Source of the DNA: Nostoc sp. CENA543
GTDB taxonomy: Bacteria; Cyanobacteriota; Cyanobacteriia; Cyanobacteriales; Nostocaceae
Reading direction: 5' to 3'
DNA length: 64,000 nucleotides
Assembly: GCF_002896875.1 (NCBI RefSeq)
Contig: NZ_CP023278.1
Span: forward strand, 1,364,001-1,428,000
Positions 11,542 through 31,054 of this stretch are shown here, in pieces (within the stretch, counting starts at the first letter, position 1; every line of letters starts with the position of its first letter). Position numbers and translations under genes: made by a program. The notes beneath the pieces were generated by a model, which saw only the letters and a program-made list of their open reading frames with translations, was not told the DNA's origin and did no database searches.

Positions 11542-12345
11542 ATGCTGACAACTTCTACTCAACTATTACGACTTTCTCAAGGACATCTCAATTTACTAGA
11601 GACTTGTCCCCGTAAATTCCAGCACACTTATTTAGAACAACTCAACTCGCCTTTAGATCCTGAACACGAAGCACGTCAGATTTTAGGTAGTCGTTTTCAC
11701 CTGCTGATGCAGCAGCGAGAAATGGGTTTACCAATTGATCATCTCTTAGCCGCCGATACACAATTGCAAAGTTGGATGTCTGCTTTTGCTGACGCAGCAC
11801 CAGAGATTATCCAAACCACAACAAATGCTGAAATCTTTCGGGAAAGCGAACATTACCGCACCTTGCAAGTGCAAGATTATTTACTAACTGTTATTTATGA
11901 TTTACTCATTGGGGATAACCAACAAGCTCAAATCTTAGATTGGAAAACCTATCCCAAACCGCCAGATAAACGCAAGTTAGCCCAAAACTGGCAAACTCGG
12001 CTATATATGTATGTCTTAGCGGAAACTAGCACCTATTTACCAGAAAATATTTCTATGACCTATTGGTTTATCCAATCTGAAGGTAAACCACAAAATCTTA
12101 AATTTACTTACAGCACTAGCGAACACGAAAAAACTGCGAAGAAACTTCATCAGTTGTTAAATAAATTAACTAATTGGTTAGCACTTTATCAACAAAATCA
12201 GCCCTTTCCCCAAGTGACAGAAGGTAATAAAGCTTGTAACTATTGTCAGTTTGCCATGAGATGTGGGCGGGTTCCTACGACTGAAGACACGAACACGCAA
12301 GATACTTTACCAAATATCGCTAATATTCAAGAAGTAACTATTTAA
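11542..12345 (+). CDS. PD-(D/E)XK nuclease family protein (RecB/Cas4-like fold)
   Basis: 267 residues. The N-terminus LSQGHLNLLETCPRKFQHTYL is the typical first helix of the PDDEXK_1 family; the catalytic core reads as QILDWKTYPKPP (D-x-K) with the following helix LAQNWQTRLYMYVLAE. At the C-terminus CNYCQFAMRCGR, together with the early Cys, suggests a 4Fe-4S cluster as in RecB-family and Cas4 nucleases. No CRISPR genes are near; recJ is 830 bases downstream, so a DNA-repair role is plausible. Specific substrate unknown. Confidence 0.85.
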   Translation: MLTTSTQLLRLSQGHLNLLETCPRKFQHTYLEQLNSPLDPEHEARQILGSRFHLLMQQREMGLPIDHLLAADTQLQSWMSAFADAAPEIIQTTTNAEIFRESEHYRTLQVQDYLLTVIYDLLIGDNQQAQILDWKTYPKPPDKRKLAQNWQTRLYMYVLAETSTYLPENISMTYWFIQSEGKPQNLKFTYSTSEHEKTAKKLHQLLNKLTNWLALYQQNQPFPQVTEGNKACNYCQFAMRCGRVPTTEDTNTQDTLPNIANIQEVTI

Positions 12346-12444
12346 TTGGGGACTGGGGATTGGGGATTGGGGACTGGGAAACTACTTTATAGTCTTCGCA
12401 CCCCTACACCCTCACACCCCTATACCCTTACACCCTTAATATTT

Positions 12445-13071
12445 ATGACAAACTTTGATCAAAGCGACGCTATTTATGTACGCGAATTAGGGATTGATGA
12501 TATTGCTCCCGTTTATCATTTGGGAGAACAATTATTTACTAGTGATTTATATCCCTATCTATACCGTACCTGGGATGAGTGGGAAGTTATTGGACTTTAC
12601 AACACAGATCCAGAATATTGTTTAGTGGCGGAAACAGATGGAGAATTAGCAGGATTTATTCTAGGAACAATTATTACTAAAGCCTCCTGGACTTATGGTT
12701 ATATTTTATGGTTGGGTGTCAATCCTAAATTTCAGCGTCAAGGAGTTGCAGATAAACTAGTTGATAAAGTTGTTGCTCGCATGATTGAGGATGGGGCAAG
12801 ATTTATGTTAGTGGATACTGATCCTACTAATATACCCGCCGTGAAGTTTTTCAACCGCAAGGGTTTTGGCAATATCCGCCAGCATATTTTCTTATCGATG
12901 AATTTAAGCAAACATCCATATTATGGCAGACTAATTGACTATGAACATCAAAAAGCAGAAAGGGCAGGTTATAGACGTTCTCGTCCTGCTATTCGCGCCC
13001 GTAAACCTGATGGATTTGCCAATGAAGTAATTTTAAATCCTCTCGTCAATGAGCCTATAAATAATGAATAA
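12445..13071 (+). CDS. GNAT family N-acetyltransferase
   Basis: 208 residues from ATG 12445. The 12346 start would translate a GGGGATTGGGGACTGG repeat tract and is rejected. GNAT enzymes move acetyl from acetyl-CoA to an amine. The core is clear: a strand-helix start (IYVRELGIDDIAPVYHLGEQLF), motif A LGVNPKFQRQGVADKLVDKV (acetyl-CoA pyrophosphate loop), then motif B with FFNRKGFGN. A basic, unusual tail (AERAGYRRSRPAIRARKPDG) of about 40 residues follows, possibly for nucleic-acid or protein binding. Substrate unknown. Confidence 0.9.
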   Translation: MTNFDQSDAIYVRELGIDDIAPVYHLGEQLFTSDLYPYLYRTWDEWEVIGLYNTDPEYCLVAETDGELAGFILGTIITKASWTYGYILWLGVNPKFQRQGVADKLVDKVVARMIEDGARFMLVDTDPTNIPAVKFFNRKGFGNIRQHIFLSMNLSKHPYYGRLIDYEHQKAERAGYRRSRPAIRARKPDGFANEVILNPLVNEPINNE

Positions 13072-13176
13072 ATGTTTGTAGTTAGGACTTTAGTCCTCTC
13101 TTTGCTCAAAAGATAAAAATCTTGACTAAATTTCTAAATACTAAGTTTAAATAATATCCAATTTTGAATTAATTCA

Positions 13177-15471
13177 ATGCAGTGGATTTTAGCAACAACT
13201 GAAGAACCACCAGCGTGGTTTATCCAATTAGTAAGACAGTACGCGCCTGCATCTTCAAGTGGATTATTTGCAGCCCAATTGTTATGGCAACGGGGAATTC
13301 AAGATAAATCACAATTAGCTGCTTTTCTTAACCATAAAACATATCAAGCTGCTAGCCCCTTTGAATTTGGGCAAGAAATGCACTTAGCAATGGCACGTTT
13401 GCAACAAGCACGCCAGGCAGGTGATAAAGTAGCGATTTGGGGCGATTTTGATGCTGATGGAATTACATCTACTTCTGTACTTTGGGATGGCTTAGGACAA
13501 TTTTTTACTCAACATCAACAATTAACTTATTACATTCCCAATAGATTAAAAGAATCCCACGGTTTGAATGAAACTGGTATTAATAATTTAGCGGCACAAG
13601 ATTGTAAATTAATTGTCACTTGTGACACTGGTAGCACTAATATTGATGAAATTATCTATGCTCAACATTTAGGTATAGATGTCATAGTTACAGATCATCA
13701 TACTTTACCTGCTGAACGTCCACCAGTGACAGCAATTATTAATCCCCGTTATTTAGCCAAGGAACATCCACTGTATAATTTATCTGGGGTAGCGGTGGCT
13801 TATAAGTTAGTGGAAGCCCTTTATCAAACTTTACCTGATATTCCCCAAGACCCATTAGAGAATTTATTAGATTTAGTTGCGGTTGGTTTAATTGCTGATT
13901 TAGTCCAGTTAAGTGGTGATTGTCGATATTTAGCACAGTTGGGGATTCAAAGACTACAAACTGATTTGCAACAACCACCTGCATTGCGCCGTAGACCAGG
14001 AGTAGGACGATTATTAGAATTGTGCCAGAAAAGTGGCGATCGCCCCACAGATATTTCCTTTGGTTTAGGGCCACGCATTAATGCAGTTAGCCGCATCCAA
14101 GGTGATGCGAGTTTCTGTGTGGAATTACTCACTAGTCGCGATATAAAACGCTGTAGTGAACTTGCAGAGGTCACAGAATTAGCCAATACACGCCGCAAAT
14201 CTCTGCAAAAAGACGTACAAACCCAAGTCAACCAAAAACTTACCCAATTAGACCTTTCAACGACTAGTGTCATTGTTCTCGAAGATCCCCAATGGCCAGC
14301 CGGTGTCTTAGGCTTAGTCGCCGGACAAGTCGCCCAAGAAACAGGCCGCCCGACAATTTTGTTGAGTACAGAAGGGAATGGAGAACTAGCACGAGGTTCA
14401 GCCCGTTCAATTAACTCCGTTGATTTATATCAGTTGGTGAAAGACCAAGCTTATTTATTGCATCGTTTTGGCGGACATCCCTATGCGGCTGGGTTGAGTT
14501 TACCAGTGGAAAATATTCCTTTATTTCGAGATGCGATTAATCAGCAATTACGGCAATCTTTAGGTGGAATTAATCTTACCCCTACAGTACAAGCAGATAT
14601 AGTAGTAACAGTAGCCGATTTAGGTAAAGAATTATTTTTAGAACTCAAGTTATTAGAACCTTGTGGTATGGGAAACCCTGTGCCTAAATTATTTATTAAA
14701 AACTGTTGGTTTGAAAATACTTGGCATCGCAATCAACAAGATTCGCAAGGGAAAAAAGTACAGTATATTAAAACCGATTTTGATATTCGTGATGACTCTA
14801 CTAGAAATCCTTTTCCTGGGATTTGGTGGGGACATTATAAAGAAGAATTACCCGTGGGTAAATGTGATTGTATTGCTGAATTAGACTATAACACTTTCAA
14901 AAAACGCTATGAAATTAGATTAATTGCTGTTCGTTCTAGCGAGAATTCAACACCACAAACCCAACATTCCGCAAATATTCTAGATTGGCGGAATCTCTCC
15001 GCGTCCCTCGTCCCTAATTCCCCATCTCTGATATTAGAAGAATGTCCGACTCATTGGGATGATTTGCGTGCTTGGTGGCGGCGATCGCTCTATAATCATC
15101 AACAATTAGCTTTAGCTTGGTCTAAACCCAATCATCAACCACCCAAGGAAATTTGGTTGACACTTGTGGGTATTGCTAAATACCTAAGCCGGACGAATCA
15201 ATTAGTCACCCGTGTACAAATTTTAGAGAAATTGGGAATCAGCGATCGCGCTTTATTTTTAGGCATTAAGGCTTTAAAATATTGGGGATTTATTGTCACA
15301 AGACAAGACCGTCATTTGCAGTTTACTTGGAATTCTAGCAACGTTTTGGAGACAAAAGGTGATGTAGCTGTAGCAGAATTTCTCGCTGCTGTGAGTGAAG
15401 AACAATTTCAGCAGCAGTATTTTGCGGAAGTTCCTTTGTCTACTATTGTGGCGATGGTAAATCAGATTTGA
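13177..15471 (+). CDS. recJ: Single-stranded-DNA-specific exonuclease RecJ
   Basis: 764 residues, longer than E. coli RecJ (577) as usual in cyanobacteria, with ~150 extra residues at the end. It degrades ssDNA 5' to 3' in recombination and mismatch repair. DHH-family motifs: WGDFDADGI (motif I), TCDTGSTN, VTDHHTLP (DHH), and DHHA1 with RFGGHPYAAGLSL. The block GLGPRINAVSRI is diagnostic for RecJ. The C-terminal extension contains a winged-helix-like segment (LVTRVQILEKLGISDRALFLGIKALKYWGF). Confidence 0.96.
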   Translation: MQWILATTEEPPAWFIQLVRQYAPASSSGLFAAQLLWQRGIQDKSQLAAFLNHKTYQAASPFEFGQEMHLAMARLQQARQAGDKVAIWGDFDADGITSTSVLWDGLGQFFTQHQQLTYYIPNRLKESHGLNETGINNLAAQDCKLIVTCDTGSTNIDEIIYAQHLGIDVIVTDHHTLPAERPPVTAIINPRYLAKEHPLYNLSGVAVAYKLVEALYQTLPDIPQDPLENLLDLVAVGLIADLVQLSGDCRYLAQLGIQRLQTDLQQPPALRRRPGVGRLLELCQKSGDRPTDISFGLGPRINAVSRIQGDASFCVELLTSRDIKRCSELAEVTELANTRRKSLQKDVQTQVNQKLTQLDLSTTSVIVLEDPQWPAGVLGLVAGQVAQETGRPTILLSTEGNGELARGSARSINSVDLYQLVKDQAYLLHRFGGHPYAAGLSLPVENIPLFRDAINQQLRQSLGGINLTPTVQADIVVTVADLGKELFLELKLLEPCGMGNPVPKLFIKNCWFENTWHRNQQDSQGKKVQYIKTDFDIRDDSTRNPFPGIWWGHYKEELPVGKCDCIAELDYNTFKKRYEIRLIAVRSSENSTPQTQHSANILDWRNLSASLVPNSPSLILEECPTHWDDLRAWWRRSLYNHQQLALAWSKPNHQPPKEIWLTLVGIAKYLSRTNQLVTRVQILEKLGISDRALFLGIKALKYWGFIVTRQDRHLQFTWNSSNVLETKGDVAVAEFLAAVSEEQFQQQYFAEVPLSTIVAMVNQI

Positions 15472-15704
15472 AGACGCAATTTAGAACATGAAATTTCAAC
15501 TGAAAGCATATACTGTCACTATTGAGGCAGGGGGGCAGGGTGCAGGGGGCAGGGGGAAAGGAAATTATGGCGATAAATTGGTTACTTTAGGCTTTGGAAG
15601 TCTTTTAATATTTCGGTATCTACTTTAAGACATAATTTTACTAAGATGATTTATGTCTTCAGATTTATGAATTATTACAGAACAATGCTTATAGTTAAGT
15701 TCGT

Positions 15705-15816
15705 AGGTGGTAATACACCTAATTAGTAAGTGAGGTTGACAATCATGTTGATGTATTTATCCATAAATAATTTTCGGGCGCATTCATCAGAAAGCTGCGA
15801 TCGCTATTCAGAATAA
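15705..15816 (+). pseudogene. Orphan copy of the bacteriocin-precursor leader module
   Basis: AGGTG(15705-15709)/CACCT(15716-15720) hairpin, five bases, GTAAGTGAGG (15726-15735), nine bases, then ATG at 15745: the same architecture that precedes both precursor genes at 21364 and 22034. The frame that follows is only 23 codons (MLMYLSINNFRAHSS, then SE and stop) and lacks the double-glycine leader. I read it as a precursor gene whose coding part was lost or replaced. Confidence 0.5.
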
Positions 15817-15943
15817 GTTCATCATTGCAGCCACAATAATATAAATATTCCCAGTCGCGCCGTCTACTTTGGGAATTGATCAGCAATTATGTCAACGTGA
15901 ATATTCCAGATAAATTTTTACTTGCCATCATCTCATCATCGTT

Positions 15944-16024
15944 CAAGGAAATTCCCAGATGAATCGCATATTCTGATGATATCTTGCACTCGCATCAGAA
16001 TATATATAACTCGGAAATTCCTTG
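15944..16024. repeat. Large compound hairpin
   Basis: Outer arms CAAGGAAATTCC (15944-15955) and GGAAATTCCTTG (16013-16024) pair with one mismatch; inner arms ATATTCTGATG (15968-15978) and CATCAGAATAT (15993-16003) pair perfectly. It could be a small mobile repeat or a structured RNA. Confidence 0.5.
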
Positions 16025-16280
16025 TGTTGTCAATAATTTATCTAGCATGATACTGGATAGGGTTAATCTGTCAATATAACTCTTATTTGATTTTTGCAAT
16101 GCACATTTCCCAAGTATTGGTGAGTTCAGGCTTACGCCTAACACATCTTAAATCGACGTATATTTGTGCAGAAATCAAGTGTGAGAATTTATTTATCAGG
16201 AAAATATGACAATCAAACATAAATTATCTGTGTAATTTAGTTGGCTAAATTACCAATTACTTCATCCTAAAAAAAGGGGT

Positions 16281-16346
16281 AGAGGAGATTATATGAACTC
16301 GCTCAACGTAAGTGAGGATTTTGAGGGAGTTTGAGCGTTCTCCTCT
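16281..16346 (+). promoter_or_regulatory. Hairpin covering a strong ribosome-binding site and a 13-codon frame
   Basis: AGAGGAGA (16281-16288) pairs with TCTCCTCT (16339-16346), with an inner GCTCAA/TTGAGC pair. AGGAG is followed six bases on by ATG (16294) and a frame MNSLNVSEDFEGV then stop. The 10-mer GTAAGTGAGG of the precursor module also occurs inside (16308-16317). Possible regulatory leader; function unproven. Confidence 0.35.
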
Positions 16347-16623
16347 GTGTTCTCTAGACGCTACCAACGCTAGATTTACAAGAAAAATAATTACCGCAGT
16401 AGGCAATATTTTCTTGTTCCCCTGCGATGATTATATCAATAATCATCCATAATGTTTGCTAATATTAGTAGCATTTTTCAGTTGATGCCTTAATTTACTC
16501 CGAAAGAAATAGGTATCAGTCAAAAGATATGCAAAATTGACTCCTAAAACTTTGTCGTGAACCACAAAACCTGCCACCATTATTCTGTTTTTTTACACAT
16601 TGAGCAACAGCAGGTGCAATACT

Positions 16624-18597
16624 GTGAACACCTTACACCGCCAAGAAAATAATTTTTGGCATCAGTCTAATGAACAGATTCCTGAGCAACTGCCTATACT
16701 AGAAGCCAACGAATTTCTGCCCCACTTGGGTAAATGGACAAGTATCGGGGGAGGGATAATATTAACTATCTTTCTAGCAGGAATTGCTCTAACATCGATT
16801 TTGAAATATAACGTGACGGTGAAAGTCCCGGCTACAATTCGGCCTGTAGGAGACATTAAGGTTGTACAGTCATTAATCAGTGGCAAAATCGCCAAAATTA
16901 CGGTGACAGAAAATCAGACAGTAGCAGCAGGAGAAGCCATTGCATATATTGATAATTCTCGTTTGCAAAATCAAAAAAGTCAGTTAATAAATACTATTGG
17001 ACAAAGTCAATTACAATTCAATCAAATAGATGCTCAATTAAGAGAAATTGATACACAAATTGCGGCACAGAGGAACTTAAATCAACGCCTCACTATGGCT
17101 GCACAAGCTGAACTGAGTGGGACACAACGCAACTATACAGATCAGCAAGTTAAAGCTATGGCTGATATGGGACAAGCACAGGCAACTTTAACTTTGGCTA
17201 GAATACAACGCGATCGCCTGCAACGGGAAAACCTCCTCCAAGCCACCATTCAAGAAACACAAGCCGCTTTAGAATTAGCCAAAGTCCAACGCGATCGCCT
17301 GCAACGAGAAAACCTCCTCCAAGCCAACATCCAAGAGGCGGAAACGGCTTTAAAGCTAGCCAGAGAACAACGCGATCGCCTCCAGCGTGACAATCTTTTA
17401 AGCACAACAGTAGAAGAAACAGCCGCAGCCCTTGATTTAGCCAAAGCCCAACGCGATCGCCTACAACGGGAAAAACTTTTACAATCCACTATCCAAGAAG
17501 CTGAAGCTGCCTTAAATTTAGCCATAGTGCAGCGAGATAGAATGCAGCCGATAGTGACATCCGGTGCGATCGCGCGCAATGTCTATGAGGAAAAAGTCCA
17601 AGCCGTCAAATCTGCCGAGGCGAAACTCGCACAAGCCCAAGCTAACGCTAAAAACCTCCTCGAAGAAAAAGAACAAGCGGTGATTTCCGCCGAAGCCAAA
17701 CTTGCACAAGCCCAAGCTAACGCTAAAAACCTCCTCGAAGAAAAAGAACAAGCGGTGATTTCCGCCGAGGCGAAACTTGCACAAGCTAAAGCCAACGCTA
17801 AAAATCTCCTTGAAGACAAAGCCCAAGCGGTAATTTCCGCCGAGGCGAAACTAGCACAAGCCAAAGCCAACGCTAAAAATCTCCTCGAAGAGAAAGAACA
17901 AGCCTTCACCACCGCCCAAGCTAATTTACTCAAAGCCAAAACAGCCATGAATCCCAGTCATGCACCCGTGATTGTCGCCTCGGAACGTATTCAACAAGAA
18001 CAGGCTAAAGGTGAAGGGACATTAGCCGCTTTAAATAAAGAAAGAGAAACACTGCTGCAACAACGCCTAGAATTTCAGACACAACTAGATAAAACTCGTA
18101 AAGAACTCCAACAAATTGAAAACGACATCAATCAGAGTGTCATTCGCGCCCCAATTGCCGGAACAGTCTTGCAATTTAACTTACGTAATCCAGGACAAGT
18201 AGTGCAACCGAGTGAAGCGATCGCCCAAATTGCCCCTCTCAATGCTCCCATTTTGATTAAAGCTTATGTCCCAGCACAAGAAATCAATAAAGTCAAGCCA
18301 GGTCAACAAGTCCAAATGCGAGTTTCCGCCTGTCCCTATCCAGACTACGGCACTCTCAGAGGCACAGTCAAAACCATCGCCGCCGATGCCCTCCCCATTG
18401 CCAATAATACCCCATCACCCACCCCGCCCAAAGCTGGATACGAAGTGATTATCGAACCTCAAAACCCCTACGTCGGCAGAACTGACAGGCCATGTCAACT
18501 CAAATCAGGCATGGAAGGCCAAGCTGATATCATCTCCCGCCAAGAAACCGTTCTGCGCTTCATTCTCCGCAAAGCGAGATTAATTGCAGATATGTAG
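16624..18597 (+). CDS. HlyD-like membrane fusion protein with expanded coiled-coil repeats
   Basis: 657 residues from GTG 16624 (TTG 16600 is also possible; neither has a strong Shine-Dalgarno). It links the inner-membrane exporter to the envelope. One membrane helix at about 40-65 (ISTIGGGIILTIFLAGIAL region), a first lipoyl half (VKVPATIRPVGDIKVVQ, SGKIAKITVTENQTV), a very long coiled coil, and the second half (QSVIRAPIAGTVLQFNLRNPGQVV, then a beta-barrel VKPGQQVQMRVSA). The coiled coil contains four 27-residue repeats with core QRDRLQRENLL (17195-17540) and four 25-residue repeats with core SAEAKLAQAQANAKNLL (17587-17890). It lies 107 bases before the C39 exporter gene. Confidence 0.9.
   Translation: MNTLHRQENNFWHQSNEQIPEQLPILEANEFLPHLGKWTSIGGGIILTIFLAGIALTSILKYNVTVKVPATIRPVGDIKVVQSLISGKIAKITVTENQTVAAGEAIAYIDNSRLQNQKSQLINTIGQSQLQFNQIDAQLREIDTQIAAQRNLNQRLTMAAQAELSGTQRNYTDQQVKAMADMGQAQATLTLARIQRDRLQRENLLQATIQETQAALELAKVQRDRLQRENLLQANIQEAETALKLAREQRDRLQRDNLLSTTVEETAAALDLAKAQRDRLQREKLLQSTIQEAEAALNLAIVQRDRMQPIVTSGAIARNVYEEKVQAVKSAEAKLAQAQANAKNLLEEKEQAVISAEAKLAQAQANAKNLLEEKEQAVISAEAKLAQAKANAKNLLEDKAQAVISAEAKLAQAKANAKNLLEEKEQAFTTAQANLLKAKTAMNPSHAPVIVASERIQQEQAKGEGTLAALNKERETLLQQRLEFQTQLDKTRKELQQIENDINQSVIRAPIAGTVLQFNLRNPGQVVQPSEAIAQIAPLNAPILIKAYVPAQEINKVKPGQQVQMRVSACPYPDYGTLRGTVKTIAADALPIANNTPSPTPPKAGYEVIIEPQNPYVGRTDRPCQLKSGMEGQADIISRQETVLRFILRKARLIADM
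17195..17540. repeat. 81-bp coding tandem repeat, four copies
   Basis: Each unit encodes 27 residues with the core QRDRLQRENLL and each carries a GCGATCGCC (HIP1-like) site at the RDR codons. The period of 27 residues is close to four heptads minus one, which fits an extended coiled coil. Confidence 0.85.
17587..17900. repeat. 75-bp coding tandem repeat, four copies
   Basis: Each unit encodes 25 residues (EEK.QAV.SAEAKLAQA.A and NAKNLL). The units are nearly identical at DNA level, so copy number could change by slippage or recombination. Confidence 0.88.
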
Positions 18598-18599
18598 GG

Positions 18600-18685
18600 A
18601 TGGGGAATGGGGAATGGGGCATTGGGCATTGAATATTAATCTGTTCCCTAATGACTAATGACTAATGACTAATGACTATTGACTT
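18600..18685. repeat. Composite 7-bp repeat tract
   Basis: GGGGAAT, CATTGGG and TAATGAC units; inverse of the tract at 10357-10442. It fills the gap between the fusion protein and exporter genes. Confidence 0.75.
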
Positions 18686-18704
18686 TCTCCACGTTGAATT
18701 AATT

Positions 18705-20864
18705 ATGCTTGGTTTCAAAAAAACTTACCCCTGTGTTTTACAGTTTAGTGAAGAAGACTGTGGCGCAGCTTGTCTGGTGACGATTTGTAGGCGTTATGGA
18801 CGCTTTTTGAGTTTAAATAAAAGTCGAGAAGCGGTAGGAACGGGACAATTAGGAACAACTTTATTAGGCTTGAAACGTGGTTGCGACAATCTCGGTTTTA
18901 ATAGTAGAGCCGTGAAAGCTTCGCCTGCAATTATCGACAGAATCAAAGAATTGCGTTTGCCAGCAATTATCCATTGGCAAGGCTACCACTGGGTAGTTTT
19001 ACACGACAAGCGGGGACGAAAATACGTCATTGCTGATCCTGCTGTGGGTTTGCGTTACGTTAGTCGCGAAGAGTTAACAGCCGCTTGGAATGGGGTGATG
19101 CTGTTGCTTGAGCCAGATCCCAATCGTTTTGCTCAACAACCCCAAGAACAACCCCAAGCCGGTTTTATCCGCTTTCTTCAGCGTATGCAGCCCTATCGGG
19201 GGCTATTGTTCCAGGTGTTTCTCCTCAATATTGTCATGGGTGTTTTGGGTTTAGGTACTCCGGTACTGATTCAATTACTCACGGATGATGTGTTAGTGCG
19301 CGGAGATACAGAGTTACTCACTGTTATAGTTATCGCTGTTATAGCGATGACTTTATTTAGTAGCACGCTGGAATTATTGGAATCAACGATGATTGCTCAT
19401 TTTGGGCAACGGTTGCAATTAGGTTTAGTGTTTGAGTTTGGACGCAGAATTTTACAATTACCTTTAACTTATTACGAATCACGGCGCAGTGGAGAAATCA
19501 CCAGCCGACTCAGAGATATTAATGAAATTAACCAGTTGATATCACATATTGTGGTGATGTTGCCAAGCCAATTTTTTATTGCTGTGATTTCTTTGGGATT
19601 GATAATTTTTTATAGCTGGCAGTTGGCGATCGCCGTCATTTTGATCGGTGGTTTCATGAGTTTATCTAGCTTGCCACTTTTACCAGTTTTGCAACAAAAA
19701 ACACGTAATCTCTTAGTTTTAGGTGCAGAAAATCAAGGTGTATTAGTCGAAACCTTTAAAGGCGCGCAGGTGCTAAAAACTACTAATGCCGCGCCACAAT
19801 TTTGGGATGAATTACAAAGTCGTTTTGGTCGTTTAGCAAATCTCACTTTCAGCACAATTCAAATTAGCATTATTAACAATACTCTTTCTAAGTTTCTTTC
19901 GACAATTGGCGGTGTAGTTTTACTGGCTTGCGGTAGTATTCTAGTAATTCAGGGACAATTAAGTATTGGGCAAATGCTCGCTATTAATGCCCTTCAGTTT
20001 AATGTGTTGGCATTAATTAGTACATTAGTGAGTTTAGTTGATGAATATTTCCGTTCCCAAACTGCTGTTTCGCGTTTATTAGAAGTCATTGATGCCACTC
20101 CAGAAGTCGATGAAAAAATCCACAAGCCAGTTGCACAAATAGCAGGGGATACAGATATTAGGTTTTCTCATGTGAATTTCCACCATCCTGGAAGAGTGGA
20201 TTTATTAGAAGATTTTTCGCTGAAACTTCCTGGCGGAAAAGTGATTGCTTTGATTGGTAAGTCAGGCTGTGGTAAAAGTTCTCTAGCCAAACTCCTAGCG
20301 GGTTTATATCAACCCAATTCTGGAAATATCCGCATTGGTTTTTATAATATTCACGATTTATCCCTTGATTGCTTGCGACAACAGGTAGTTTATGTACCCC
20401 AAGAAGCACATTTTTGGAGTCGCTCAATTTTAGAAAACTTTCGTTTAGGAACGCCACACATTGCTTTTGAAGAAATTGTCACAGCCTGTCATGTTGCTGA
20501 TGCAGATAGTTTTATTAGTCAACTACCGAATAAGTATCAAACTGTGCTGGGAGAATTTGGCGCAAATCTTTCTGGTGGACAGAAACAAAGATTAGCGATC
20601 GCTAGAGGAATTCTTACCAATCCACCTATATTAATTTTAGACGAATCTACTGCTGGATTAGACCCAGTAAGTGAAAGTAATGTTTTAGATCGTCTTTTAG
20701 AATATCGTCAAGGTAAAACTACAATTTTAATTACCCATCGTCCGAGTGTAGTGCAGCGTGCTGACTGGATTGTCTTATTAGATCAAGGTAAGGTACAGCT
20801 ACAAGGTACTCTCGAAAGTTTACTAGCTCAACCAGGAGAACATTTAAAATTTTTGTCCGGTTAA
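18705..20864 (+). CDS. C39-peptidase-containing ABC exporter (bacteriocin type)
   Basis: 719 residues from ATG 18705; the in-frame ATG at 18672 lies in a TAATGAC repeat. It cleaves double-glycine leaders and exports the mature peptide. Order: C39 peptidase (about 1-130) with Cys in EEDCGAACL, His in YHWVVLH and Asp in IADPAVG; membrane domain (about 160-440); nucleotide-binding domain with Walker A IGKSGCGKSS, signature LSGGQKQR, Walker B ILILDESTA and a switch His in LITHRPS. Two precursors with matching leaders lie 500 and 1170 bases downstream. No modification enzyme is in the cluster. Confidence 0.95.
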   Translation: MLGFKKTYPCVLQFSEEDCGAACLVTICRRYGRFLSLNKSREAVGTGQLGTTLLGLKRGCDNLGFNSRAVKASPAIIDRIKELRLPAIIHWQGYHWVVLHDKRGRKYVIADPAVGLRYVSREELTAAWNGVMLLLEPDPNRFAQQPQEQPQAGFIRFLQRMQPYRGLLFQVFLLNIVMGVLGLGTPVLIQLLTDDVLVRGDTELLTVIVIAVIAMTLFSSTLELLESTMIAHFGQRLQLGLVFEFGRRILQLPLTYYESRRSGEITSRLRDINEINQLISHIVVMLPSQFFIAVISLGLIIFYSWQLAIAVILIGGFMSLSSLPLLPVLQQKTRNLLVLGAENQGVLVETFKGAQVLKTTNAAPQFWDELQSRFGRLANLTFSTIQISIINNTLSKFLSTIGGVVLLACGSILVIQGQLSIGQMLAINALQFNVLALISTLVSLVDEYFRSQTAVSRLLEVIDATPEVDEKIHKPVAQIAGDTDIRFSHVNFHHPGRVDLLEDFSLKLPGGKVIALIGKSGCGKSSLAKLLAGLYQPNSGNIRIGFYNIHDLSLDCLRQQVVYVPQEAHFWSRSILENFRLGTPHIAFEEIVTACHVADADSFISQLPNKYQTVLGEFGANLSGGQKQRLAIARGILTNPPILILDESTAGLDPVSESNVLDRLLEYRQGKTTILITHRPSVVQRADWIVLLDQGKVQLQGTLESLLAQPGEHLKFLSG

Positions 20865-20888
20865 ATTAATAGCCAAAGTTTTAGTTTC

Positions 20889-21113
20889 CTATAGGAATCG
20901 AATTTGATTTTTGCAAAAATCTAAGCATATGTAGTATATGTAGGGTGTGTTAGGCGTAAGCCGTAACGCACCAAAGACATTGGTTATAGGTGCCGTACTC
21001 TCATTGCTAACACAACGGCAATATTGCAGGAGGAAAATCCACACAGCAATTTGCTTCCCCTAAATATCTACGTATTTACGTAACTGTTCAAAAAACAAAT
21101 ATGAATCCTATAG
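20889..21113. repeat. MITE-like element, TATAGGAATC family, copy 1
   Basis: Left end CTATAGGAATCGAATTTGATT-like, right end AACAAATATGAATCCTATAG-like, i.e. imperfect terminal inverted repeats of about 20 bp. Other copies: 32427-32548 and 32581-32701. Confidence 0.7.
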
Positions 21114-21318
21114 AATATTTTTTCACTAAATATCCTGCTTAAGAAGGCTATTTTTTAGCATTACTTATAATCTATTGTTAATGGTTAATATCTCAATTTG
21201 CTATAATAAATAAATATTGATAATTCATCTTTTCATGAGTCTAAAGAAGTAAAAATAATTTTAGTAATTATGACTTTGGAATAATTTAAAATATCTGGCT
21301 TTCTTTAATAATAAAAAC

Positions 21319-21353
21319 ATAGGTGATGAAACACCTATATTAAGTAAGTGAGG
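21319..21353 (+). promoter_or_regulatory. Precursor leader module: hairpin plus extended ribosome-binding site
   Basis: ATAGGTG (21319-21325) pairs with CACCTAT (21332-21338), six-base loop; five bases later GTAAGTGAGG (21344-21353); ATG follows after ten bases. The same layout precedes the second precursor. Confidence 0.8.
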
Positions 21354-21363
21354 TAAAAATTTC

Positions 21364-21555
21364 ATGTCGCAGCAAATTGCTTTATCTGACTTAATGTCGG
21401 ATCTATCCACAGACGAACAACAGCTGCTAGCTGGTGGACAATTCCTTAGCGATAGTAGAGAAGATGGTGACGGATCATCTGACGATGATGAAGGTACTAC
21501 TCGTCTCTACAGAATTAGCAGCACCGCGCTTGTGAGAGTTCGTAAAATCCGTTAA
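21364..21555 (+). CDS. Double-glycine bacteriocin-type precursor peptide 1
   Basis: 63 residues. The leader (1-25) has DLMSDLSTDEQQLLAGG, with the GG cleavage site at residues 24-25, the substrate expected for the C39 exporter upstream. The 38-residue core begins QFLSDS, has an acidic stretch (DGSSDDDEG) and then a basic C-terminus (VRVRKIR), without Cys. It resembles peptides called CTB-family bacteriocins in cyanobacteria, from memory. No immunity gene is recognisable nearby. It is followed by three strong hairpins. Confidence 0.85.
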   Translation: MSQQIALSDLMSDLSTDEQQLLAGGQFLSDSREDGDGSSDDDEGTTRLYRISSTALVRVRKIR

Positions 21556-21671
21556 TCATCTCAGTTTGTGGTGAGAGGAGAGACTGATAAAACTGCTGCT
21601 CATTTAATGTGGCAAGTTTTAAAAGTCTGATATCTTTTCTAAGTTAGTTCAATTAACTACTTAGAAATCAC

Positions 21672-21705
21672 AAAGCTAGATATTATCATTCTAATATCTA
21701 GCTTT
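21672..21705 (+). terminator. Hairpin 1, probable terminator of precursor 1
   Basis: AAAGCTAGATATTA (21672-21685) pairs perfectly with TAATATCTAGCTTT (21692-21705); a short CTT follows. Confidence 0.6.
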
Positions 21706-21758
21706 CTTACCAGTCGCAACTTAATTCACACCTTGGACTTCTAAAACATATTTATCAT

Positions 21759-21790
21759 GCACCCATGAAATAAAACTATTTCATGGGTGC
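21759..21790 (+). terminator. Hairpin 2 between precursors
   Basis: GCACCCATGAAATA (21759-21772) and TATTTCATGGGTGC (21777-21790): a 14-bp perfect stem with a 4-base loop. No T-run follows, so it may be a structural RNA element rather than a terminator. Confidence 0.45.
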
Positions 21791-21801
21791 TTACATATTT
21801 T

Positions 21802-21850
21802 AAATCTGCATATATATATCCAATAATTATTTATATATATGCAGATTTTT
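21802..21850 (+). terminator. Hairpin 3 with T-rich tail
   Basis: AAATCTGCATATATATA (21802-21818) and its exact reverse complement (21832-21848), followed by TTGTTGATTTT. Confidence 0.55.
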
Positions 21851-21991
21851 GTTGATTTTAATTATAGAAATTTTAACAAAAATGCTAATTTCAAATATTA
21901 AAAACACAACATCTATAGATAGAATTAACTACTATTTTTTTTATAACTAAAGATTAGTTTATTACAAAAGAAATATCTCTATAACAGAGAT

Positions 21992-22025
21992 ATAGGTGAT
22001 ACACACCTATGTAACGTAAGTGAGG
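21992..22025 (+). promoter_or_regulatory. Precursor leader module, second copy
   Basis: ATAGGTG (21992-21998) pairs with CACCTAT (22004-22010); five bases later GTAAGTGAGG (22016-22025); ATG after eight bases. Confidence 0.8.
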
Positions 22026-22033
22026 AAAAAACT

Positions 22034-22327
22034 ATGTTGAGTCAAACAATTGCATCTGATTTATTGACTGATCTGTCCACAGATGAACAACAAATTTTAG
22101 GTGGTGGATATGGACGCTACAGCAAAGGCTGTGGTTGTAATGGCGGAAGTGGTGTTGGTAGCACTGAAGAGTCAACTCCAGCACCAGTATCTTTTAGAGG
22201 GGGACGTTTAGCAATCGGCTTCATCATCACAGCAACACCATTTTCTAAGTGTTTAAATGGATATTCTGGCACTAATGGAGGCTCCGGTACTAACGGAGGT
22301 GGTGTAGGTTCTGGTGGTGAAGACTAA
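22034..22327 (+). CDS. Double-glycine bacteriocin-type precursor peptide 2
   Basis: 97 residues. The leader has DLLTDLSTDEQQILGGG with the GG at residues 24-25, the same spacing as precursor 1. The 72-residue core differs completely: YGRYSKGCGCNGG at its start, a hydrophobic middle (RLAIGFIITATPF), a third Cys (SKCLNG), and a Gly/Asn/Ser-rich end. Three cysteines could allow one disulfide. It looks like a pore-forming-type unmodified bacteriocin, by inference only. A hairpin at 22341-22368 follows the stop. Confidence 0.85.
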   Translation: MLSQTIASDLLTDLSTDEQQILGGGYGRYSKGCGCNGGSGVGSTEESTPAPVSFRGGRLAIGFIITATPFSKCLNGYSGTNGGSGTNGGGVGSGGED

Positions 22328-22340
22328 TTAAATCCTGATC

Positions 22341-22368
22341 ACTTGCTCAAATTCGACTTTGAGCAAGT
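22341..22368 (+). terminator. Terminator-like hairpin after precursor 2
   Basis: ACTTGCTCAAA (22341-22351) pairs with TTTGAGCAAGT (22358-22368); weakly T-rich downstream. Confidence 0.55.
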
Positions 22369-22391
22369 TGAGACAATATTTTCAGCTTTTA

Positions 22392-22420
22392 CTAGAGACA
22401 TTGCTATGCAATGTCTCTAG
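22392..22420. terminator. Bidirectional terminator hairpin
   Basis: CTAGAGACATTGC (22392-22404) and GCAATGTCTCTAG (22408-22420), a 13-bp stem with a 3-base loop. It lies between convergent genes and overlaps the stop codon of the hydrolase gene ending at 22417. Confidence 0.6.
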
Positions 22421-23349
22421 TAATTTTGTGAGGTATCGATTTTTTCTGCTGCTAACATATTGGAACGTTCCCAAATCCAGTCTTGTATAATTGGGTTGAC
22501 TAATTCGGGTGCTTCATCTTGGGGGCAATGTCCTACGCCTTCTAGGGGGATAAATTTAAGGACTTGGGGATAATTAGCTAGTTCTCGACCTAAATCTATA
22601 GGTTCCCACGGGTCAGCAGTTCCCCACAAGATGATTGCTGGACAAGGTAGTTGTGGTAAAAGGTCTTCTGGTAGAGGCCCTGTAGAATAGGATGTAAATG
22701 CTAAAAATACGGCGACTGCACCAGGATCTTTGGCTGGCGCGGTGAGAATATCGACTAATTCATCTGTTACAATTTCGGCGTTAGCATAAGCCTGCAATAA
22801 GATTTTGCGGACTGTCTTTGGTCGTGCAACTTGATCAAAAAAGAATTTGCCTATAGGTTTAATAGCTAATATACGTTGTAGTATGGGCGCGCCAACGCGA
22901 CGCGACCAAGGTAAAGTGGCTCGCTTGCGATCGTGCAGTAATCTTAAAGAACAATTAATTAAGGTGACTCCTAATGCTATGTCTGGGTAACTGACGGCTG
23001 CTTGCATGACGACAATACAGCCAATGGAATTTCCCACTAGGAAAGCTGCTTCACCTATGACTTCACGACAAAAATCAGCTATTTGCTCTCCCCATGTTTC
23101 TAGTGTGTAAGTCATTTCGGTGTCTGGTTGAGGTTTAGCTGAAGTGCCAAACCCAATTAAATCTATGGCATAAACACGACAATTCGCTGCTAATACGGGG
23201 ATATTTTTTCGCCAATGCAACCATGAAGCACCAAAGCCGTGGACTAGAACCACAGCCGGGCCATGATTTCCTTGAGTTTGATAGCAAATGGGAAAGCCTC
23301 GCCACATCCAGGTTTTTGGGGAGTCAAGGCTGATTATTGAATTAGTCAT
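22417..23349 (-). CDS. Alpha/beta-fold hydrolase
   Basis: 310 residues. The oxyanion region LVHGFGASWLHWRKN, nucleophile elbow VGNSIGCIV (Ser in G-N-S-I-G), acid loop WGTADPWEPI and catalytic His in EGVGHCPQDEAPELVN are all present, giving a complete Ser-Asp-His triad. No signal peptide. This type is common in cyanobacteria and plants (pheophytinase/haloperoxidase-like branch), but the substrate is unknown. Convergent with the precursor genes and unlikely to belong to that locus. Confidence 0.92.
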   Translation of the reverse strand: MTNSIISLDSPKTWMWRGFPICYQTQGNHGPAVVLVHGFGASWLHWRKNIPVLAANCRVYAIDLIGFGTSAKPQPDTEMTYTLETWGEQIADFCREVIGEAAFLVGNSIGCIVVMQAAVSYPDIALGVTLINCSLRLLHDRKRATLPWSRRVGAPILQRILAIKPIGKFFFDQVARPKTVRKILLQAYANAEIVTDELVDILTAPAKDPGAVAVFLAFTSYSTGPLPEDLLPQLPCPAIILWGTADPWEPIDLGRELANYPQVLKFIPLEGVGHCPQDEAPELVNPIIQDWIWERSNMLAAEKIDTSQNY

Positions 23350-23756
23350 CAGAAATTATAAATACTAAAAAATTTATTTATTATGGATGCAATATAATTT
23401 TAAACTTTTGTAAAATTTTATCAAGCATTTCTGTCTAGGAATACCTACATAGGGGTGTTGCCTATAGAGACATCTGCTTTAAATAGGTTGAGATGAATTT
23501 CAATCATCAAATCAGATTCCCATGTGAATTAAAAGTGTTGAGATTCTAGCTCATTGTTGATAAATAATGAGCAAAGATTTGATAAAGAACATTCTAGGCA
23601 GACCAAATTAAATTCAGTAGTTTTACAAGTTGCGTATCCACAATCTGCCTATAAGATAGATTGATTATTAAGCATCTGCTAATAAGTAGTTTGCACATCC
23701 AACATGGTGCAAACTTAATTTAAATTTTTATCGCTAGTACCTTTCAGCGAAAGACA
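23350..23756. other. Divergent intergenic region
   Basis: About 400 AT-rich bases. The only structure is AGTTTGCAC (23688-23696) with GTGCAAACT (23707-23715), a perfect 9-bp hairpin or operator 41 bases before the thioredoxin-like gene. Confidence 0.5.
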
Positions 23757-24311
23757 ATGACTAGAGTTGAAACAATTGGTACTCCTGTTGGTGACTATGC
23801 ACCCGATTTTGAATTGCCTGGCATTGACAATCAAGTACATCATTTGAGCCGTTATTTAGATAATTTTGGTGTAGTAGGTGTTGTTTCTATACGCCACCAC
23901 TGCCCCTATGTGAATTTATACATTAATAGATTAAAGGAAATTCAGAAAGAGTTTGCTACAGCCGGATTTGTGTTAATTGCCATTAATGGCAGTGATAATA
24001 CTGGACTTCCTGGCCATAATTTAGAAAGTATGAGAGATTTTGCCCAGAGACACCAGTTAAATTTTCCTTACCTGTGGGATTCAACCCAAGATGTTAGTCG
24101 GAGTTTCGGCACGATCGCCACACCAATGGCCTTTGTGATAGATAGTCATGGTATATTGCGATATAGAGGACAGATTGACAATCACCCTCAAAAACCGTTA
24201 GCCAAGAGTGAAGACTATCTCAGAGATGCGATCGCAGCTTTGTTGCAGGGGAAAGAAATACTTATACCTGAAACAGAACCAGTCGGCACCCCAATAATCT
24301 GGCGTATCTAG
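23757..24311 (+). CDS. Thioredoxin-fold redox protein (AhpC/TSA-like, single-Cys)
   Basis: 184 residues. The fold is that of peroxiredoxin/thioredoxin-like proteins: GDYAPDFELPGIDNQVHHLS at the start, the conserved block RHHCPYVNLYINRL (family form NHCPYV), cis-Pro region IATPMAFVID and GILRYRGQIDN. There is one Cys (C44 region) in HCPYV and no resolving Cys nearby, so the mechanism would need an external thiol. Likely a cytosolic thiol oxidoreductase. Single gene, ATG start at 23757. Confidence 0.88.
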   Translation: MTRVETIGTPVGDYAPDFELPGIDNQVHHLSRYLDNFGVVGVVSIRHHCPYVNLYINRLKEIQKEFATAGFVLIAINGSDNTGLPGHNLESMRDFAQRHQLNFPYLWDSTQDVSRSFGTIATPMAFVIDSHGILRYRGQIDNHPQKPLAKSEDYLRDAIAALLQGKEILIPETEPVGTPIIWRI

Positions 24312-24381
24312 ACATAGATAGTCACACTACTGCTATCTTAAATTGGAGGCAATTGCAACTTTTTTGATAAAGCGTGACTTC

Positions 24382-25110
24382 ATGGGAACGAATTACCGAC
24401 GGGTTTTACTTAAACTGAGCGGTGAAGCCTTAATGGGCAACATGGGCTATGGGATTGATCCAGAAGTGGTCAAGGAGATAGCCCAAGAAATAGCAGAGGT
24501 GATAGCCACAGGCGTTCAGATAGCCATCGTCGTAGGTGGCGGCAATATCTTTCGCGGCGTAAAAGCAGCCTCGGCAGGAATGGACAGAGCCACCGCCGAT
24601 TATATTGGGATGATTGCCACAGTCATGAATGCCATGACACTGCAAGATTCACTAGAACGAATAGGAGTGCAGACGCGAGTCCAAACCGCGATCGCCATGC
24701 AAGAACTAGCAGAACCATATATTCGTCGTCGCGCCATCCGTCATCTTGAAAAAGGTCGGGTGGTTATTTTTGGTGCGGGTTCTGGCAACCCATTTTTTAC
24801 TACAGATACTACAGCAGCATTACGAGCCGCAGAAATTGATGCAGAAGTCATCTTCAAAGCTACTAAAGTAGATGGTATCTATGATGCTGACCCGGAAATT
24901 TATCCTAATGCAAAACGTTACACTACTCTGACTTACGCTCATGTTTTAGCGAACGATTTGCGGGTGATGGATAGTACCGCGATCGCTTTGTGTAAAGAAA
25001 ACAATATCCCCATTTTAGTTTTTGACCTAACAGTGCGCGGTAATATTCGCCGTGCAGTTTTAGGAGAATCTATCGGTACCCTTGTGGGAGGTTCGTGTGA
25101 AATTAGCTGA
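24382..25110 (+). CDS. pyrH: UMP kinase
   Basis: 242 residues from ATG 24382, the conserved [19 protein letters not shown] start; the upstream TTG at 24343 is rejected. It phosphorylates UMP to UDP as a hexamer. Motifs: LKLSGEA (phosphate loop), [23 protein letters not shown] and [10 protein letters not shown]. It overlaps frr by 14 bases, giving translational coupling, the classical pyrH-frr pair. Confidence 0.97.
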
Positions 25111-25645
25111 CGCTGAAAGTAAAATGCAAAAAACCGTTGAAGCGACTCAACAAGCCTTCAACACCATTCGCACTGGTCGTGCCAATGCCAGTCTACTAGA
25201 TAAAGTCCAAGTAGATTATTACGGTTCACCTACACCGTTAAAATCTCTGGCTAATATCAGTACCCCAGATGCTACAACTATCTTGATTCAGCCCTACGAT
25301 AAAAGCAGCTTAAACATAGTCGAGAAGGCAATTTCCCTCTCGGATGTGGGTTTAACACCCAGTAACGATGGGTCTGTGATTCGGTTAAATATACCACCTC
25401 TAACCAGCGATCGCCGGAAAGAACTAGCCAAAATTGCAGCTAAATACGCTGAGGAAGGTCGCGTAGGGATTCGTAACATCCGCCGAGATGCTATAGACTC
25501 CATCCGCAAACAAGAGAAAGCTTCAGAAATTTCTGAGGATGAATCCAAAGACCTACAAGATAAACTGCAAAAACTGACCAATCAGTACACCACCCGAATT
25601 GACCAGTTGCTAGCAGATAAAGAAAAAGACATCAGCACTGTTTAA
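25097..25645 (+). CDS. frr: Ribosome recycling factor
   Basis: 182 residues from GTG 25097, chosen because GGGAGG lies five bases upstream and this gives the usual N-terminus [18 protein letters not shown]. It splits post-termination ribosomes with EF-G. Signature blocks: [60 protein letters not shown], and [17 protein letters not shown]. The TTG start at 25082 is unlikely. A strong terminator follows at 25684. Confidence 0.97.
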
Positions 25646-25683
25646 GTAGGAAATAGAGAATAGCGTTTTCTGTCATTGATAAC

Positions 25684-25724
25684 AGGGGAAAAGCAAGGAG
25701 TAAAGTCATTTGCTTTTCCCCTTT
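25684..25724 (+). terminator. Terminator of the pyrH-frr operon
   Basis: AGGGGAAAAGCAA (25684-25696) pairs perfectly with TTGCTTTTCCCCT (25710-25722), followed by TT. Confidence 0.8.
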
Positions 25725-25831
25725 AAATTATGTGATAGCAGTAGATTCTGAAATTTAAGTAATCATATCAGTTTCAAAATTTCCTAAGTAACGGCTACCC
25801 TGGCTTTATCGAATTCACGAAGTAAGGAAAC

Positions 25832-25993
25832 ATGGCTAAAAAAGGTAGTTACGGAGAGTATATCTGTGGCCATTGTGGTGCTACAGACATGAAGGTAATC
25901 AGGTATGTTGATAAAGGCTATGGCACTATACGTATCGTTTTGAACTGTAATAAATGTAGAAATGAAGATTACTTTGACAGCACAGGCAATTAA
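25832..25993 (+). CDS. Zinc-ribbon microprotein
   Basis: 53 residues, MAKKGSYGEYICGHCGATDM at the start, ending STGN. Two CxxC knuckles, CGHC (residues 12-15) and CNKC (39-42), make a minimal zinc ribbon. TAAGGA lies seven bases before the ATG, a good ribosome-binding site. Codon use is ordinary. The small size and lack of other domains suggest a nucleic-acid-binding or adaptor protein; I cannot name a family. It is independent of frr (terminator between them). Confidence 0.65.
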   Translation: MAKKGSYGEYICGHCGATDMKVIRYVDKGYGTIRIVLNCNKCRNEDYFDSTGN

Positions 25994-26157
25994 CCTCAAG
26001 GAATTTAAATTTTTCTAACTGAATTTCTCACTGGAATGAGAGATGCAGACAGGGGCGGGATATATTCCGCCCATATATCTCTGGTGGTGCTGATAGATGC
26101 AAATGGATTTTGCTAGCGTGGTGAAATAGGAGCTAGCTAGGCACACAGAGGTATGAT

Positions 26158-30814: not shown

Positions 30815-31054
30815 TTAAAATCGCTCTGGCTGAAAAATCACCACAAATAGATAAATGCAAAGACTTAAGGTGACTATTCCTAAAGTAGCGATCGCGTAAG
30901 ATGCTGTTCGTGATAGCTGGATGGTGGTTGCAGCTTGTACTTCTGATGCTAGCAACACATCCACACACAGTAATACAAACAAAGATACAGGAAATCTGTA
31001 ACGTTTAATACGCAAAAAATTAAATAATTCTAAAAGATTTGGACTACTCATCAA
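30815..31054 (-). CDS. kdpF: KdpF-like small subunit of a potassium-transporting ATPase, orphan
   Basis: 79 residues. The C-terminal ~30 residues (LGIVTLSLCIYLFVVIFQPERF) match the KdpF consensus, a single helix ending in P-E-x-F. An N-terminal extension of ~50 residues carries a further hydrophobic segment (FPVSLFVLLCVDVLLASEVQA) that reads like a signal sequence ending in VQA|AT; I recall such extensions in cyanobacterial KdpF. kdpA, kdpB and kdpC are not in the window. KdpF stabilises the K+ pump in the inner membrane. An alternative Met is at 31051. Confidence 0.72.
   Translation of the reverse strand: MMSSPNLLELFNFLRIKRYRFPVSLFVLLCVDVLLASEVQAATTIQLSRTASYAIATLGIVTLSLCIYLFVVIFQPERF

Follow-up and report, generated by a model that had tools for sequence, protein, structure and literature searches.

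Genes and features of the locus

The window analysed here is a 64,000-nucleotide stretch of the genome of Nostoc sp. CENA543 (contig NZ_CP023278.1, positions 1,364,001 to 1,428,000); coordinates are window positions on the plus strand unless stated otherwise. In the part studied, a recJ-type gene is followed by an orphan leader, a structured RNA element, hlyD, an ATP-binding cassette (ABC) exporter gene with a C39 peptidase domain, and two double-glycine (GG) precursor genes, A and B. The orphan and both precursors are each preceded by a module made up of a predicted promoter, a hairpin and the extended ribosome-binding site (RBS) GTAAGTGAGG, which is the subject of this report. Sequence comparison suggests that in this filamentous cyanobacterial family many genes for small, probably exported peptides carry this shared promoter together with a hairpin at the predicted start of the message.

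The HlyD-type membrane fusion protein (16624..18597; Pfam HlyD_3) was assigned a GTG start after an AGGTG Shine-Dalgarno sequence, the open reading frame (ORF) list giving 16600; the start of the exporter (18705..20864; Pfam Peptidase_C39, ABC_membrane and ABC_tran, scanned over 18714-20861) was likewise assigned, with 18672 in the ORF list. Precursor A (21364..21555) is an ORF of 63 aa with a GG leader and an acidic core, its leader matching NCBIfam NF038167 below the cut-off; precursor B (22034..22327, 97 aa) has the same type of leader and a Cys/Gly-rich core. Judged by gene content (GG leader, C39-ABC and HlyD in one cluster), the locus belongs to the double-glycine peptide systems with a C39 exporter. 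A hairpin, ACTTGCTCAAA/TTTGAGCAAGT, lies just 3′ of precursor B at 22341-22368 and is similar to the P2 arm of the RNA element described below.

Anatomy and occurrence of the 5′ module

The orphan unit begins with the promoter box AGATTTATGAATT (15661..15673), an exact match to the class consensus of 53 upstream units that overlies the -35 region of the predicted promoter. It is followed by the -10 hexamer TATAGT (15690..15695), also the consensus in the 53 upstream units, with a predicted transcription start at about 15702-15704, then by the hairpin TAGGTG-N6-CACCTA (15704..15721), the RBS (15726..15735) and an ORF of 23 codons (15745..15816). The unit of precursor A has the box GGAATAATTTAAA (21278..21290), the -10-like TAATAAT (21306..21312), the hairpin ATAGGTG-N6-CACCTAT (21319..21338) and the RBS (21344..21353), and that of precursor B has the box AGATTAGTTTATT (21951..21963), the hexamer TATAAC (21980..21985), the hairpin ATATAGGTG-N5-CACCTATGT as folded (21990..22012) and the RBS (22016..22025), with the promoter sequences of both following the consensus of 63 downstream units. 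In precursor B the outer two bases of the hairpin may lie upstream of the predicted start. All three hairpins were found by pattern search and belong to the covariation set below, and all three RBS copies are exact. Two more exact matches to the promoter box occur on the minus strand, at 3278-3290 and 31019-31031 (3 in the window versus 0.64 expected).

An earlier note on this DNA had reported the hairpin and GTAAGTGAGG at three sites, and they are indeed present (15705-15735, 21321-21353 and 21994-22025, all on the plus strand) as the only exact copies of this layout in the 7.2-Mb genome. The window contains three copies of AGGTG-N3..8-CACCT, where 0.25 would be expected, and 0/100 shuffles reach that number; genome-wide, AGGTG-N3..9-CACCT-N3..8-GTAAGTGAGG was matched only at the 3 sites of this cluster, with 0 matches for the reversed control. 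Folded singly, the orphan hairpin is not unusual (z -1.18; 26/200 shuffles as stable), and those of precursors A and B are (z -3.22 and -2.61; 0 and 3 of 200). The spacing of exactly five bases between hairpin and RBS described in the same note does not hold: the distances from CACCT to GTAAGTGAGG are 5, 7 and 7 bases, and five is obtained only if the stem end is moved. Among 116 distinct sites the spacing is 6 in 78, 7 in 18, 5 in 8, and 3 or 9-14 in the remaining 12.

The RBS 10-mer occurs 14 times genome-wide (reversed control, 5), and since only 5 of the 14 copies are part of this system, it is not specific by itself; with one mismatch allowed, the window count of 5 is not unusual (15/100 shuffles). 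R1, a covariance model trained on 33 copies of the module, three of them from this genome, found four strong copies in the genome and nine weaker matches up to E 10, with a maximum of 20.5 bits. The fourth copy lies outside the window (L064:2740-2772) ahead of a gene for a 59-aa GG-leader peptide, with no exporter match in the 7 kb around it. Also outside the window, at two places in the same genome (L103 and L105, near base 1500), GTAAGTGAGG is followed a few bases on by ATGAGTAAT and a repeat-like stretch, and the ORFs after it have 4 and 38 codons and no GG leader.

Beyond this genome, the relaxed module pattern was found in 35 of 388 genomes of the order, with the reversed control matching 2 genomes. 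R1 at E 1 matched 203 of the 217 family genomes, many of these matches being weak and possibly due to chance. A species-wide pattern scan covered 80 loci of at least 120 stretches, with Nostocales assigned by record title and GG leaders by regular expression; among the matches listed, a GG leader follows 12 of 18 Nostocales sites versus 1 of 66 sites elsewhere. Of the six Nostocales sites failing the expression, two do have a GG leader (L221 and L284), three are short-ORF orphans (L229, L247 and L271) and one is cut by the stretch end (L278).

Covariation of the stem

To the same note's proposal of a covariance test the answer is that compensating changes exist. The alignment comprised the 116 sites, which were selected by the box, with a six-pair stem and 500 shuffles for comparison. 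Pairing was kept in 91.7% of cells, against 30-49% in slid registers; 17 cells were changed on both sides versus 5.2 in shuffles, and the covariation was 0.125 versus 0.090, a value reached by 0/500. The stem variants include GGTA/TACC, GGTT/AACC and GATG/CATC, and both the doubly changed cells and the further pair types exceeded those of all 500 shuffles. Loop lengths are 5, 6, 7 and 9 in the alignment and 3-8 by stem search. Covariation over these sites indicates a real RNA helix, a property of the 5′-terminal stem-loop stabilisers discussed below. Precursors of the double-glycine type with unrelated cores are preceded by one constant 5′ module, and its stem is a real RNA helix; in this the earlier reading is upheld.

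Association of the hairpin with the promoter

Inspection of the sequence 5′ of the hairpin revealed a conserved box together with a -10 hexamer, placed at a constant distance. We counted boxes and hairpins at 80 loci chosen by the RNA element and not by the hairpin. Where the box is at its place, a hairpin follows in 128 of 136 units (116 distinct sequences), compared with 11 of 56 GG-leader genes lacking the box (Fisher 4e-25, across related genomes); the count is not fully independent, because some of the sites counted had already served to recognise the box consensus. An earlier, smaller count, with loci partly chosen by the hairpin and a wider box range, gave 66 with both, 23 with neither, 10 with the box only and 5 with the hairpin only. 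Genes lacking the box, mostly in tandem, retain the RBS or a close variant, mostly without the hairpin.

The promoter classes differ, with TATAGT upstream and TAATAAT-like sequences downstream, and in both about 8 nt separate the -10 from the stem, which places the stem at the expected 5′ end of the mRNA. This 5′-terminal position is a prediction from -10 placement in the two promoter classes. Comparison across the loci indicates that the hairpin belongs with the promoter and not with each precursor; because it tracks the promoter and is mostly absent from box-less genes with an RBS, it points to the transcript 5′ end rather than to translation of each peptide. The earlier proposal of a fixed hairpin-to-RBS distance serving all peptides of the cluster has to be abandoned, as the distance varies and most box-less genes that carry the RBS have no hairpin.

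The orphan unit and the lost first precursor

Of the 80 element loci, 71 have an upstream promoter unit; a full precursor follows in 48 of these, and an ORF of only 13-43 codons in the other 23. Three loci first scored as orphan (L166, L176 and L192) were reassigned by hand to the full class, having AGS or a leader missed by the regular expression; the upstream precursors of L176 and L192 are full length with AGS instead of the AGG cleavage motif. Upstream units with a full precursor keep the hairpin in 48/48 and the exact RBS in 47/48, and short-ORF units in 18/23 and 13/23 (p 0.003 and 2e-5). That short-ORF units lose hairpin and RBS more often indicates that these two parts serve the precursor; the promoter would be retained for the sake of something further downstream, the simplest candidates being hlyD and the exporter.

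Several genera have plainly truncated leaders at the orphan position. In the genus of the window (g1) an orphan with an ORF of 19-24 codons occurs in 12/12 element loci, including eleven besides the window. The first precursor of relatives matched NF038167 above the cut-off of 32 bits in 11 of 11 tested of the 48 full ones (62.7-92.0 bits). By this comparison, what remains in the orphan is the leader of a first precursor that stood upstream of hlyD and has been lost. The third site of the earlier note, followed by only 23 codons, is accordingly not a spare cassette; 23 of 71 upstream units are of the short-ORF type. About 30 nt 3′ of the orphan ORF there is a further hairpin (15847-15876), and relatives in the genus show by eye a similar one with TAGCACCGTAAA in the loop.

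A structured RNA element upstream of hlyD

A structured RNA element, termed class A, with helices P0-P4 was recognised at 16276..16422 by a match to covariance model R2, by pair counts and by folding. A stem AACTCGCTCAA/TTGAGGGAGTT holds GTAAGTGAGG in its loop, inside a larger RNA of about 150 nt that is closed by GGGG/CCCC and includes P1, P3 and P4; the P2 loop bears CGTAAGTGAGG. The fourth GTAAGTGAGG at 16308 of the earlier note is real (16308..16317, by sequence match and fold), and instead of being a stray copy it sits in the P2 hairpin loop of this second conserved RNA structure, without an AGGTG/CACCT hairpin. The R2 match of the window covers 16273-16351 with 100.8 bits, the window sequence being among the 29 used to build the model.

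In 55 sequences from the 80 loci, window included, 85.0% of cells are paired, with 19 pairs showing double changes versus 11.2 in shuffles and 88 doubly changed cells versus 36.8; further pair types are not outstanding (52/500 shuffles). Covariation comes mainly from P1 and P4, one P4 pair being G-C in 30 and A-U in 25 sequences; P2 is nearly invariant, with one pair showing double changes, and P3 is poorly kept (54%). For the first 29 sequences, RNAalifold gave almost no covariation (term 0.11), and 83/500 shuffles paired as many cells as the three-helix structure. Of two versions of P2, P2b kept more cells than P2a in the first 29 sequences (95.6 vs 85.6%, with 11 pairs drawn for P2a), and the order was reversed in the 55 (91.7 vs 97.2%). 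We prefer P2a on the sequence data, since P2b has no double changes, those of P2a being in one pair only. As regards a riboswitch or leader attenuator that alternates between two folds, a second pairing, CGCTCAA/TTGAGCG, is possible and kept in 91.7% of cells, with no covariation.

R2 matched 85 of 217 family genomes, representing 24 of 56 genera; each of these genomes has a single strong match, and some have additional weak ones. In the order it matched 42 of 388 genomes, of which 40 belong to this family and another family accounts for the remaining 2. HlyD is encoded 3′ of the element in 85/85 (at 256-768 nt in 80), and the C39 exporter follows in 84/85; in the remaining case the contig stops before it. 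The loop carries an exact copy of all ten bases in 80/80 loci passing a regular expression that itself required nearly that sequence; of the other five, four are exact and one is different. A simple terminator scan did not report the element, and some relatives have short T runs after P1. A conserved stretch is also visible after the element. No match at gathering score to the 4227 Rfam families was found in window positions 12000-26000 or in five relatives, the best E in relatives being 0.018, away from the element.

The weak R2 matches found 3′ of downstream precursors turned out to have a related fold and another conserved loop, AUAAAUCAGRUU; they are here called class B. A model built from 12 sequences, R3, gave 145 matches in 83 sources at E 0.01. 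Sorted by position, 79 of them fall on the class-A element; the other 66, spread over 43 loci, include one truncated by an end and two on the two strands of the same site. Among 93 downstream GG genes with enough sequence beyond the stop, 41 have a class-B match within 250 nt of the stop, all 41 within 70 nt (examples are L155:9846-9938, L186:1577-1669 and L140:9058-9150). Many precursors are thus flanked by RNA modules at both the 5′ and the 3′ side, and more than half were counted without a 3′ match; R3 at E 0.01 found none after precursors A and B of the window.

Proposed mechanism and alternatives

We lean, by a small degree, towards the view that the conserved entity is a transcription-start module whose 5′ stem-loop protects the mRNA end, with the orphan promoter driving hlyD and the exporter and the RNA element tuning read-through. 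The promoter, with the AGAWTWATKWAWW box over the -35 region and the -10 hexamer, would be followed in order by the stem-loop, a short single-stranded linker, the extended RBS GTAAGTGAGG and the precursor gene. The stem-loop is predicted to begin within about 3 nt of the 5′ end and most likely shields a short, strongly expressed peptide mRNA from 5′-end-dependent decay, the linker keeping the RBS open; later tandem genes would keep the RBS and need no hairpin. The orphan copy would be the start module that once served the lost first precursor (in relatives a peptide of the CTB family), and would have been retained as the promoter from which hlyD and the C39 exporter are still expressed; the folded RNA of about 150 nt between orphan and hlyD probably tunes read-through from precursor to exporter. 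A possible exchange of precursors as cassettes, as suggested earlier, would fit this anatomy.

Several points weigh against this view. Nine of the 80 element loci have no upstream promoter unit in the stretch searched (up to 3.6 kb), three of them having an RBS unit without promoter or hairpin and six having no unit at all, and a separate hlyD promoter between the element and the gene is possible. The hairpin was scored in 11 of the 56 box-less genes and is missing in 8 of the 136 boxed units. Stem pairs with double changes number 3 versus 1.5 in shuffles, and 44/500 shuffles reach that number. The relatedness of the genomes makes the p values too small, genus g1 supplies 11 of the 23 orphans, and box conservation in orphans is partly built in, the box being a selection criterion. 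Stabilisation by a 5′ stem-loop in E. coli is a precedent from another phylum, and according to a passage in PMC10989914 cyanobacteria have RNase E and RNase J and no known RppH homologue, so that the decay step blocked would differ from that in the E. coli and B. subtilis precedents.

The same signals could act in translation, with a small RNA or RNA-binding protein recognising the ten-base RBS, assisted by the hairpin, and setting peptide output. Only GAGG is expected to pair with the 16S tail, and the conservation of GTAAGT beyond it speaks for such a binder, as does the loop of the exporter-leader RNA, which displays the same 10-mer in 84 of 85 element genomes; however, the box-less tandem genes that keep the RBS without the hairpin do not fit, and none of seven window proteins scanned, a subset of the ORFs, is regulator-like. 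We consider this unlikely. Yfr1, the sole small RNA tested, was rejected as a partner of GUGAGG: 79 precursor leaders averaged -11.5 kcal/mol versus -11.4 for 121 GAGG sites of the window, and the orphan (-15.7) and the element (-15.3) are within the background range, which extends to -22.7. A related idea, which we hold to be unlikely, is that the element is an RBS mimic whose loop GTAAGTGAGG competes for or senses the RBS binder, coupling exporter expression to precursor translation; it would then found an RNA family in which the loop is of two kinds, the RBS loop of class A, located before hlyD, and the other conserved loop of class B, right after downstream precursors.

It is very unlikely that the palindrome serves as a DNA operator where transcription starts and acts on transcription only. 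In favour of this are its position immediately 3′ of the -10 hexamer and its association with the promoter. Against it, G-U pairs are tolerated, both arms change together and loop length, the ground for our rejection, varies; a dimeric operator would not be expected to accept changing half-site spacing. As for the orphan, it may be a functional gene in its own right, a micropeptide of 19-24 codons or a small RNA, and not a relic. Its presence in all twelve g1 loci with in-frame length differences of 6 nt favours this, and pS exceeds pN in 16 of 20 pairs among ten g1 loci (for example 0.45/0.05 and 0.56/0.28; the pairs are not independent). Four pairs fail (window/L144 0.00/0.02, window/L141 0.17/0.24, L144/L141 0.16/0.22 and L142/L183 0.19/0.19), the ORF has only about 22 codons, and the plain truncated leaders of other genera lie at the same place, so we regard a functional orphan as rather unlikely and retain the lost precursor.

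Taken as a transcription-start module, these features make it possible to treat peptide genes whose cores are unrelated as a testable regulon, defined by one type of promoter, one RNA module at the 5′ end and one leader RNA for the exporter, and the module flags precursor genes by DNA and RNA signals and not by core sequence. With the RBS and a structured RNA loop identical in sequence, coupling between the supply of peptide and of exporter at the RNA level can be tested directly, and this loop copying the precursors' RBS is to us the most interesting part of the system.

Comparison with known systems

A literature search on the GTAAGTGAGG 10-mer gave no cyanobacterial report by title among the papers listed, and no earlier report of the module or the RNA element was found in the titles and abstracts listed, search coverage of subscription papers being limited. 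The main texts of a 2016 Nostoc PCC 7120 small RNA paper and of a Nostoc Yfr1 paper (PMC6974561) do not mention HlyD or bacteriocin. For Nodularia CCY9414 a published map of transcription starts exists. The cluster shares HlyD, a short C39 ABC exporter and double-glycine precursors with the cyanobacterial bacteriocin clusters of Wang et al. 2011 (PMC3140520), whose main text, unlike the present analysis, has no mention of palindrome, hairpin, promoter or ribosome binding.

The first precursors of relatives tested are full members of the CTB family bacteriocins (NF038167), unlike the two precursors of the window, of which A reached 24.3 bits, below the cut-off of 32, in the leader only and B gave no match; five downstream precursors of relatives were also below it (20.2-27.4 bits). 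Like cyanobacterial leader RNAs and candidate structured RNAs, the RNA element has several helices, covaries and keeps a constant position in front of a gene; in the stretches searched no Rfam family matches it at gathering score.

The 5′-terminal stem-loop stabilisers of E. coli ompA and papA and of B. subtilis aprE have a hairpin at the extreme 5′ end before an open RBS, on mRNA for an exported product. Work cited in PMC3997798 gives precedents for such stabilisation in E. coli and B. subtilis. The module would resemble these in its predicted 5′-end hairpin, open RBS and probably exported product; it differs in that one stem family, with a putative stabilising role, extends across many peptide genes and is tied to one promoter type.

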